DNA of 34,662 bases from contig NVTF01000064.1 of NCBI GenBank assembly GCA_002401485.1, forward strand, positions 1-34,662, given 5' to 3'. Position 1 is the stretch's first letter. Each line of letters begins with the position of its first letter. The position numbers and the translations under genes are program-made. Shown here piece after piece: positions 11,440 through 16,840 of the stretch. Under the pieces are notes generated by a model. The model was given only the letters and a program-made list of their open reading frames with translations. It was not told the DNA's origin and searched no databases. The stretch is from Elusimicrobiota bacterium (lineage in GTDB: Bacteria > Elusimicrobiota > Elusimicrobia > UBA1565).

Positions 11440-11701
11440 CTCTTAAACCCTAATAAAATAATGAAGGAAGCAGGACTCGCGTTGGAGTCGGTGCTTCCCT
11501 GGACTCATCCGGTTTCGGCCGGATCGTGGATACCCCAGGGCCTATTCCCCAGGCTACAGAGTGTTACTTAAGAATAACGATCCCTATGGACCTCACCCAG
11601 GGTCTATCGGCACATTGTAGGCTGGGTCTTATGACTGTTTGCCATGGATTTTAGGTGACGGTCCTGAGCCCTCACATAAATGTATCACGTCAGGCCGACC
11701 T
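11440..11701 (-). other. Non-coding leader region rich in possible RNA stems
   Basis: No gene fits here. Pairings seen: 11466-11472 with 11492-11498 (7 bp) continuing as 11474-11478 with 11485-11489; 11507-11512 with 11519-11524 around a six-base loop; 11497-11502 with 11535-11540 enclosing that hairpin; 11595-11600 with 11632-11637. The first stem overlaps the third by two bases, so they could be alternatives. Read on the minus strand, the 11466-11498 hairpin is followed by a T-rich run just before the ATG at 11438, which would suit attenuation. It does not match tmRNA, SRP RNA, RNase P or a riboswitch that I can recall. Confidence 0.35.
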
Positions 11702-14956: not shown

Positions 14957-15003
14957 GGGGCCGTACGTTGAGTTGTTGAAGTTATTCGTTTACGAATTTT
15001 TTT
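14957..15003. repeat. Palindromic repeat, degenerate half copy (a), ending in a T-run
   Basis: The left arm matches copy (c) at 16773 with one base changed early and one in the middle. The apex ATTCG-TTTA-CGAAT is kept, then the right arm is replaced by a run of Ts (14997-15003). It lies between the convergent 3' ends of the second SPFH gene and the small membrane gene. With the T-run it could act as a plus-strand terminator, though the remaining stem is only five bp. Confidence 0.75.
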
Positions 15004-15514
15004 AATCCCGAGCGAGATTTTGCCGCTTTTCGGCTGCGGCTTCGGCGGCGCCGCGAAGGCCATCTTCGATGGCGTCGATGGAAGCGGACGCTCCGGTGTT
15101 TTTATCTTTGAAGGATTCCCAGCAATTCACCATGGCGATGCCGTGTTTCTGCGCGAGCGCCCCAATGGCGGCATTGGCGAAGATGAAGAAGGCTCCGGCA
15201 TCCGCGAGGATGAGCGGTTTCAGCGTCGAACGGTGAAAGGCCAGGCCCCATACGAACCAGATGCCGATGCCTGCCCAAAAAAGGAATGCATTTCGCCGTT
15301 CCTTATTTTCCGATTCACCGAAACTCATGAAAATCGAAAAGAAAAGCTGGCTCGCGATCAGGAGTGCGATCCAGATGGAACGACAATAGACTGCTTGGGC
15401 AGAACCTTGAAGGACATTGCCAAACAAGAGTCTGTCGAAACCGAAGTGGGCGGCGGTTCCGGCCAGCAGATTTACGCCGAGTAGAATAAGGGTCGAGCCG
15501 AGTGCGTTGGACAT
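15002..15514 (-). CDS. Small integral membrane protein of unknown function
   Basis: A 170-residue protein with about four membrane helices (~5-24, ~44-64, ~76-94, ~103-122) and a hydrophilic Ala/Glu/Lys-rich C-terminal tail. No family recognised. The start is fixed by a promoter at 15520-15548 whose -10 ends five bases before the ATG. The promoter and first ~35 codons lie within a 143-bp repeat, copied at 16081-16223. This is the complete copy of the gene; the other is a 37-codon stub. Confidence 0.75.
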   Translation of the reverse strand: MSNALGSTLILLGVNLLAGTAAHFGFDRLLFGNVLQGSAQAVYCRSIWIALLIASQLFFSIFMSFGESENKERRNAFLFWAGIGIWFVWGLAFHRSTLKPLILADAGAFFIFANAAIGALAQKHGIAMVNCWESFKDKNTGASASIDAIEDGLRGAAEAAAEKRQNLARD

Positions 15515-15552
15515 GCCGTACTATAGCGAATCCTGGGGATTGGACCAAGGGC
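15410..15552. repeat. 143-bp direct repeat, copy 1
   Basis: Aligns without gaps to 16081-16223 with 11 mismatches (about 92% identity). It covers the promoter and first ~35 codons of the 170-residue membrane gene and ends at the base of palindrome (b). Confidence 0.95.
15520..15548 (-). promoter_or_regulatory. Promoter of the 170-residue membrane gene
   Basis: On the minus strand: TTGGTC (15543-15548), 17-bp spacer, TATAGT (15520-15525), five bases, ATG. Leaderless geometry. The duplicated version at 16191-16219 has a better -35 (TTGGCA). Confidence 0.6.
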
Positions 15553-15612
15553 CGTTCGTTGAGTTGTTGAGTTATTCGTAACCGAATAACTCAACAACTC
15601 AACGAACGGCCC
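15549..15612. repeat. Palindromic repeat, copy (b): perfect 30-bp stem, 4-base loop
   Basis: Arms 15549-15578 and 15583-15612 are exact reverse complements around TAAC. It lies just after the DUF985 gene stop and just before the promoter of the membrane gene, at the edge of direct-repeat copy 1. No T-run follows the stem, so it is not a classical terminator, although a stem this long would still block or stabilise RNA 3' ends. Confidence 0.95.
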
Positions 15613-15619
15613 CGATGAC

Positions 15620-16075
15620 TTATGAAAGTTTTTGGATCCAGGTTGAGGCTGTTGGGAATTTCTTGAGGAGGGCCTCGCGTTCTCCCATTTCGAAATCAGA
15701 AAAATCGAATCCGGGTGCTACCGTGCATCCGACGAAGCTGTATTCTGATTCCGGTTCGGGGAGAGCCCCAAACCATGATCCGGCCGGTACGCAAGCCTGT
15801 GGATTTTCGGGACTAAGAAGAGTTTCAACGAGAGTCCCATTCGGACGAATCTCGATGATACGCAGCGGCCCGCCCCCGTAGAAGTGCCATAGTTCATCGG
15901 CCTTGATGCGGTGTAGTCGTGACAGTGTTCCTTTTGGAAGAAGAAAGTAGATTGCGGTTGACGTGCTGCGTGTTCCTCGCGCGGTTTCAAAAGTTTCGTT
16001 GGACCGATAGGTCTCTTTGTAGAAGCCGCCTTCCGGATGGGGTTCAAGGCCGAGTTTTTCGATGAGCGGGTTCAT
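15620..16075 (-). CDS. DUF985 cupin-fold protein
   Basis: A 151-residue single-domain cupin of the DUF985 type. It begins MNPLIEKLGLEPHPEGGFYKETYRS and has TAIYFLLPKGTLSRLHRIKADELWHF with the expected metal/ligand His and Glu, GGGPLRIIEI, and an end with VAPGFDFSDFE. The function of this family is not well defined. The ATG at 16075 sits in an ATGA overlap with the stop of a 37-codon stub of the neighbouring membrane gene, so it is probably expressed by translational coupling from the duplicated promoter. The frame stays open upstream but is antisense noise there. The gene lies between the two 143-bp repeats. Confidence 0.9.
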   Translation of the reverse strand: MNPLIEKLGLEPHPEGGFYKETYRSNETFETARGTRSTSTAIYFLLPKGTLSRLHRIKADELWHFYGGGPLRIIEIRPNGTLVETLLSPENPQACVPAGSWFGALPEPESEYSFVGCTVAPGFDFSDFEMGEREALLKKFPTASTWIQKLS

Positions 16076-16185
16076 GCGGAAAGGACATTTCCAAACAAGA
16101 GTCTGTCGAAACCGAAGTGGGCGGCGGTTCCGGCCAGCAGATTGACATCGAGTAGAATTAGAGTAGAGCCCAGTGCGTTGGACAT
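16072..16185 (-). pseudogene. 37-codon stub of the 170-residue membrane gene, now upstream of the cupin gene
   Basis: Encodes 35 residues matching the N terminus of the protein at 15002-15514, with Gly13 changed to Asp, then Ser-Ala and a TGA that overlaps the cupin ATG. It keeps a full promoter. It may now act as a translated leader for the cupin gene; the single membrane helix it encodes could be a by-product. Confidence 0.8.
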
Positions 16186-16223
16186 GCCGTACTATAGTGA
16201 ATCCTGGGGATTGTGCCAAGGGC
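16081..16223. repeat. 143-bp direct repeat, copy 2
   Basis: Pairs with 15410-15552 at offset 671. Includes the duplicated promoter and truncated reading frame ahead of the cupin gene. Confidence 0.95.
16191..16219 (-). promoter_or_regulatory. Duplicated promoter driving the stub and cupin gene
   Basis: TTGGCA (16214-16219), 17-bp spacer, TATAGT (16191-16196), five bases to the stub ATG at 16185. The -35 is closer to consensus than in the other copy. Confidence 0.6.
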
Positions 16224-16293
16224 GGATCTTTATAGGTCCTGAGTGCCGTCGAGAGTCAGACGGGAGGCCCCTGATGATGGCTCCATCCGGGCT

Positions 16294-16306: not shown

Positions 16307-16771
16307 ATGGTACCCTTGAGCTTGCTGTTTTCCTTGACGTTTGCCGCCAATGCCGGACCCTCCGTTGATCAGCTCCGTTCGATCCATGCGACGGGGTCCA
16401 ATCGTCAGATTTATAATGGCGGAAAACACTCGCCCTCCCTCGCGGTTCGTCTGGGCAACAAGCGCCCGGGGATAAGGACCTATCCCGCCTTCGCCAAATC
16501 GGGTCCAGGGGCAGGCCAAAAACGGGGCGCCATTCAACAGGTTCCAACCGTGCATGCGGCTAAGAAGCTGAATCTCCCGAAGGGGACCTACGGTGCCGCT
16601 CCTCCGCCTCATTTAAGTTGGAGTTATGATCGTACGCTCTATGCCGCCGGGTATGCCCTCGCCGGCGCTACGTTGGGATTTATGATGGGCGGCCCGATCG
16701 GCGCCGCCGTCGGATTCATTGGCGGATTTTTCCTCGGCGCCCTAATAGGAAAAGCCACCGGCGTCGGATAA
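16307..16771 (+). CDS. Secreted protein with C-terminal glycine-zipper membrane segment
   Basis: A 154-residue protein with a clear signal peptide (~1-16, ending AANA), a basic, Gly/Pro/His-containing middle and a C-terminal glycine-zipper stretch, GATLGFMMGGPIGAAVGF continuing to the end. Glycine-zipper segments insert into or associate with membranes. No family is recognised. I chose 16307 over the ATG six bases earlier because TATAAT sits at the leaderless distance from 16307. The long open frame upstream is antisense to the cupin gene. It converges on gpsA, with palindrome (c) filling the gap. Confidence 0.65.
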   Translation: MVPLSLLFSLTFAANAGPSVDQLRSIHATGSNRQIYNGGKHSPSLAVRLGNKRPGIRTYPAFAKSGPGAGQKRGAIQQVPTVHAAKKLNLPKGTYGAAPPPHLSWSYDRTLYAAGYALAGATLGFMMGGPIGAAVGFIGGFFLGALIGKATGVG

Positions 16772-16772
16772 T

Positions 16773-16840
16773 GGGGCCGTTCGTTGAGTTATTGAAGTTA
16801 TTCGTTTACGAATAACTTCAATAACTCAACGAACGGCCCC
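16773..16840. repeat. Palindromic repeat, copy (c): perfect 32-bp stem, 4-base loop
   Basis: Arms 16773-16804 and 16809-16840 are exact reverse complements around TTTA. It fills the whole gap between the convergent stops at 16771 and 16841. It has the same outer sequence as copies (a) and (b), but differs inside the arm in ways matched on both sides, so the stem is preserved. Confidence 0.95.

Follow-up and report, generated by a model that had tools for sequence, protein, structure and literature searches.

Gene capture between duplicated pieces of resident sequence has been described in E. coli, where linear fragments offered for homology-facilitated illegitimate recombination were mostly circularised instead and entered by a single crossing-over, generating duplications of 109-950 bp (PMC3240628). 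The product of such Campbell-type integration is a foreign segment between chromosomal direct repeats of ~100-950 bp with one illegitimate junction, and the locus reported here shares this architecture. It differs in that the process is read back from one natural locus, and in a repeat that is 8% diverged and covers exactly a promoter and a gene start. T6SS effector-immunity arrays and Rhs loci (PMC5361080) offer a further likeness, since there too a homologous 5' segment anchors an unrelated newcomer and the old parts are kept nearby; here, in contrast, it is the 5' stump that was left behind, the resident gene is whole and neither a toxin nor an immunity gene is present. The locus also carries palindromes that resemble REP/RAYT systems, whose hallmark is a transposase gene flanked by inverted arms (PMC2817692).

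The window, a stretch of 34,662 nt, is the entire contig C31 of a 2.91-Mb metagenome assembly (191 contigs, 78% complete) of an uncultured Elusimicrobiota bacterium. A repeat search recovered direct repeats of 151 nt at 15410-15560 and 16081-16231 (91% identity, start-to-start distance 671 nt), and blastn aligned the pair with E=5e-55. The 143-nt core, 15410-15552 against 16081-16223, aligns with 11 differences and zero gaps (92.3%), in agreement with the initial annotation, which had reported an ungapped pair at ~92%; the pair is unique within the 2.91-Mb assembly. Read along the minus strand, the locus begins with copy 2 (16223-16081) and continues with a cupin gene (16075-15620), a palindrome (15613-15549) and copy 1 (15552-15410), which runs into the membrane protein gene X. 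Each copy comprises a sigma-70-like -35/-10 pair with 17-nt spacing followed by codons 1-35 of the 170-aa ORF at 15514-15002. In copy 1 (TTGGTC-N17-TATAGT) these codons begin the intact X, whereas copy 2 lies beside the original intergenic region between X and its neighbor Y, with which it is continuous and unaltered. The anatomy proposed earlier is thereby upheld: the repeated block holds the promoter and first ~35 codons of the membrane gene, the cupin gene sits between the copies behind the duplicated promoter, and the intact membrane gene follows the other copy.

The resulting homology-insert-homology structure contains a single illegitimate junction, which is crisp and places X codon 35 against position -6 of the cupin gene. 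The insert consists of the cupin gene and one palindrome and nothing else. It holds no transposase or integrase, nothing recognisable as left from X codons 36-170, and no ends seen to be shared with the inserts of look-alike loci in this genome. A transposon or integron cassette was considered and rejected on this content and on the 143-nt length of the duplication, and a tRNA-targeted integrative element was rejected because the window contains no tRNA genes. Two details had escaped the initial annotation: an ATGA overlap between the X stump and the cupin gene, and a palindrome family at the outer edge of the repeat.

The captured gene (15620-16075, minus strand) encodes an intact 151-aa cupin of the DUF985/Cupin_5 family (PF06172, E=1.3e-46), scoring 158.5 bits against a curated cut-off of 25 and covering profile positions 3-138 of 139. 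Like the solved members 1yud, 1znp and 3loi, it is a full-length domain that aligns end to end, and compared with these members its genomic placement alone is unusual; as a gene it is a common small one. It clusters with Elusimicrobiota cupins in a tree that poorly resolves branching within that group, and its GC content is 0.522 versus 0.550. X (15002-15514, minus strand) encodes an orphan membrane protein of 170 aa with ~4 hydrophobic segments, for which no convincing relative emerged from 57 near genomes, 341 genomes of the phylum, pattern scans of GTDB r220, viral contigs or plasmids; a second full-length X was not found anywhere in this genome. Divergent from copy 2, Y (16307-16771, plus strand) encodes a small secreted glycine-zipper-like protein, with a weak match to the glycine zipper (E=0.064) and a TATAAT that marks its start.

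The palindrome behind the cupin stop codon (15549-15613) forms a 65-nt perfect hairpin (-59 kcal/mol, z -13.6), and it ends where copy 1 has its outer edge, the two sharing a GGGC. The same family provides a complete palindrome between Y and gpsA (16773-16840) and a half palindrome directly past the X stop codon (14957-14997). This half is fused to the stop codon, as if one arm had been lost or X had been joined into a palindrome. Across 2.14 Mb the family occupies ~38 places, most of them only a few nt away from a stop codon, and changes in one arm are matched in the other; the palindromes after the cupin gene and after X carry differing arms (GTAC and GTTC, respectively). On another contig (C34:17218-18179), a gene for a PF01797 Y1 (IS200-like) transposase (E=2e-11) is located between matched inverted palindrome arms. 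Judged by its dispersed palindromes and flanked transposase gene, the family would qualify as a REP/RAYT-like system in Elusimicrobiota. It shares with REP/RAYT (PMC2817692) the dispersed intergenic perfect palindromes, the matched arm changes and the PF01797 gene between inverted arms; it differs in having arms of ~29 nt rather than whole REPs of 20-40 nt and fewer copies, and the GT(A/G)G head was not established in flanks inspected by eye.

The promoter of copy 2 (16191-16219, minus strand; TTGGCA-N17-TATAGT) has a better -35 box than that of copy 1 (TTGGTC), with an ATG 5 nt past its -10 box. It is the only promoter-like match between 14900 and 16900 (10/12, with 1.4 expected by chance). 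The predicted promoter of both copies is of the leaderless type, with the ATG 5 nt past the -10 box (the type calls for ~5-7 nt) and no SD motif. Genome-wide, -10-like boxes upstream of 1055 genes show a sharp maximum at 6 nt before the ATG (42 versus ~3 per position), and an SD-like motif occurs in only 1 of the 75 genes with a box at this leaderless peak position. Leaderless-type promoters are therefore numerous in this genome, with SD motifs nearly excluded at them.

Past codon 35, copy 2 continues for two extra codons, completing a 37-codon leader ORF (16072-16185, minus strand; MSNALGSTLILLDVNLLAGTAAHFGFDRLLFGNVLSA, then a stop) whose TGA (16074-16072) overlaps the cupin ATG (16075-16073) as ATGA. 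The cupin gene retains 6 nt of its own leader, and its immediate upstream sequence contains no SD-like motif. Given a leaderless promoter and a cupin gene that lacks an SD of its own, translation would most likely start at the X stump and be handed to the cupin through the ATGA. The cupin gene may be regarded as the second cistron of a translationally coupled pair, with the stump as the first, and such coupling is the simplest route to its translation, as far as the sequence tells. With the junction 6 nt before the ATG, such an overlap arises by accident with a chance of ~1/3, so on its own it provides no evidence of selection. A genome-wide search for a leader ORF, ATGA coupling and a leaderless promoter together returned 8 loose matches among 1042 candidates, indicating no common device. 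The stump might nonetheless be a one-helix membrane leader of 37 residues that protein-level selection has retained, serving as an ATGA-coupled landing pad for captured genes, a view that we consider doubtful. If it were true, bacteria with leaderless mRNAs could use a leaderless promoter to express a gene that has no ribosome entry of its own.

The two copies differ in a pattern that bears directly on their history. The copies differ at 8 of the 105 coding positions; 7 of these differences fall at third codon positions and are synonymous, and one changes an amino acid (G13D), giving dS 0.30 and dN 0.013. Had the copies started out identical and the stump drifted, at most one nonsynonymous change in 8 would have P 0.005-0.026, the range reflecting kappa of 1-4 and an intact-copy constraint (omega) of 0.05-0.3. 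The pattern is a poor fit to a duplication after which the stump decayed neutrally and fits the divergence of functional alleles before they were joined. Either the sequences diverged as functional genes before joining, or the stump itself has been selected, and in both cases the repeat divergence is no clock for the insertion. Its use as a date, which the initial annotation had suggested, does not hold for differences that are nearly all synonymous and of which many probably predate the joining or accrued under selection, and for the same reason the claim that this event is older than the one at 8.7-11.8 kb does not follow.

The best reading of the locus, which we hold tentatively, is the single-crossover integration of a circularised donor fragment from a related cell. 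The donor would have carried in a row a cupin gene, a palindrome, the promoter of its own X (X') and the X' start. A piece reaching from cupin position -6 through X' codon 35 would have been released, and its ends, joined into a circle, would have created the sole illegitimate junction, codon 35 beside cupin -6. One crossover between this circle and the resident X start would yield X start, cupin, palindrome, X start and the rest of X, leaving X unbroken. The cupin gene, severed from its own promoter, would now be transcribed from copy 2. What we infer here (donor, circle and crossover) accounts for the one sharp junction, for a repeat edge at the palindrome, for the intact X and for the synonymous divergence. 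The insert is located between direct repeats of resident sequence. A donor and a recipient that were unlike upstream of X would produce a repeat whose outer edge lies right at the palindrome, and this is where it lies. The repeats also differ as donor and recipient alleles would, although the differences are few and a selected leader would look alike. A close donor for the cupin gene is plausible, because the protein clusters with Elusimicrobiota cupins and its GC is ordinary. Against the single crossover, RecA would have had 143 nt of homology at 8% mismatch to work with, which is short, the eight coding differences make a small sample, and a selected leader could give the identical pattern after any type of insertion. 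Neither an empty site nor the supposed donor order is seen in any of the relatives compared, which are too distant for a close comparison, the sole same-genus genome having only 48% gpsA identity. Across 10 relatives the gene order of gpsA, the SPFH pair and the cupin is not conserved, and mapping the relatives' cupin neighbors onto this genome located no empty ancestral cupin site.

Among the alternatives, the nearly synonymous-only divergence is also accounted for if X, its promoter and a 3' palindrome were duplicated, the paralogues co-existed for a long time and codons 36-170 of one were then replaced by the cupin gene. The related half palindrome after the intact X agrees with such a duplication, but the arms of the two palindromes differ (GTAC versus GTTC), more events are required, and neither a remnant of codons 36-170 in the insert nor a second full X in the genome is found; this history is possible but unlikely. 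That same missing remnant, expected after simple decay of a whole-gene duplicate, upholds the proposed link between the repeats and the cupin gene. Flanking direct repeats would instead arise in one event if a 143-nt staggered break at the X start had been filled around a captured cupin-palindrome fragment, the identical copies diverging later, and comparable structures of 60-90 nt exist at 8.7-11.8 kb and on contigs C30, C43 and C185. This is also unlikely, a shade more so: it demands later protein-level selection on the 37-codon stump, or chance (P 0.005-0.026), and the insert brings neither transposase or integrase nor shared ends. A Ku gene, as used in the end-joining route, was not found in this 78% complete assembly, which counts against the staggered break and in favor of the circularised fragment.

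The position of the palindrome exactly at the repeat edge, the half palindromes flanking X and other genes, and the Y1 transposase gene between matched arms (C34:17218-18179) raise the prospect that the REP-like palindrome and its transposase drove the rearrangement with the cupin gene as cargo. A causal role for the palindrome is nevertheless unlikely because the four other look-alike events lack edge palindromes; in addition, IS200/IS605-type transposases produce no sizeable target duplications (PMC2817692), and the palindrome may itself postdate the event, making this account improbable overall. An assembly artefact might be suspected in a metagenome assembly of 191 contigs, but is highly improbable given the 11 point differences, 7 of the 8 coding ones synonymous, and junction sides that are coding and in order. 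Together with the unrelated flanks, the differences bear out the initial annotation's view that the pair is no assembly duplicate.

The circularised donor fragment thus remains our preferred reading for the cupin locus, which has counterparts of similar design. A gene start or junction duplicated around an unrelated gene is also present at 8.7-11.8 kb, whose resemblance to the cupin locus had been pointed out before and stands as far as anatomy goes, and at three further loci on C30 (20314-20373 and 22020-22079), C43 (16796-16868 and 18682-18754) and C185 (10305-10379 and 11171-11245). In these three, direct repeats of 60-75 nt (91-93%) cover a neighbor gene's start, with an inserted gene between. 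Scans covering 2.14 of the 2.91 Mb returned 14 direct pairs and 1 inverted pair of similar local repeats in 2.1 Mb, compared with 17 direct pairs (in 7 loci) and 8 inverted pairs under the same filter in 0.63 Mb of a rough control comprising 80 short loci around other cupins in other bacteria. A special genome- or family-wide mechanism was set aside, there being no repeat excess here relative to the control loci.

Of the other repeat pairs found in this genome, several derive from tRNAs (C7, C29) or are internal repeats; at C29 30631-33732 and C7 3448-4230, direct repeats that by eye resemble parts of tRNAs surround small inserts, as expected for tRNA-targeted integration. In two Bacteroidota control loci (L080 303-653 and L100 2358-2600), small genes that by eye appear GIY-YIG nuclease-like are flanked by direct repeats, 58 and 153 nt long, respectively. 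The sole RNA match from an Rfam search of the window is a 2'-dG-II purine riboswitch away from the repeats (11494-11564, minus strand; RF03165, 73.6 bits, gathering 60). It lies within the 8.7-11.8 kb insert, ~56 nt upstream of a gene at 11438-10524, and is followed by two function-unassigned genes, the second with an HExxH-like motif (HETHHW).

The event represents a known route of gene gain, here very compact and with an unusually neat expression arrangement. It provides a compact natural example of a gene gained without breaking the neighbor and supplied at once with a working promoter, and it illustrates that an insertion is not necessarily dated by the divergence of the repeats on its flanks. 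Where leaderless genes are many, as in this genome, a promoter and gene start copied together would be the smallest unit able to express a captured gene.
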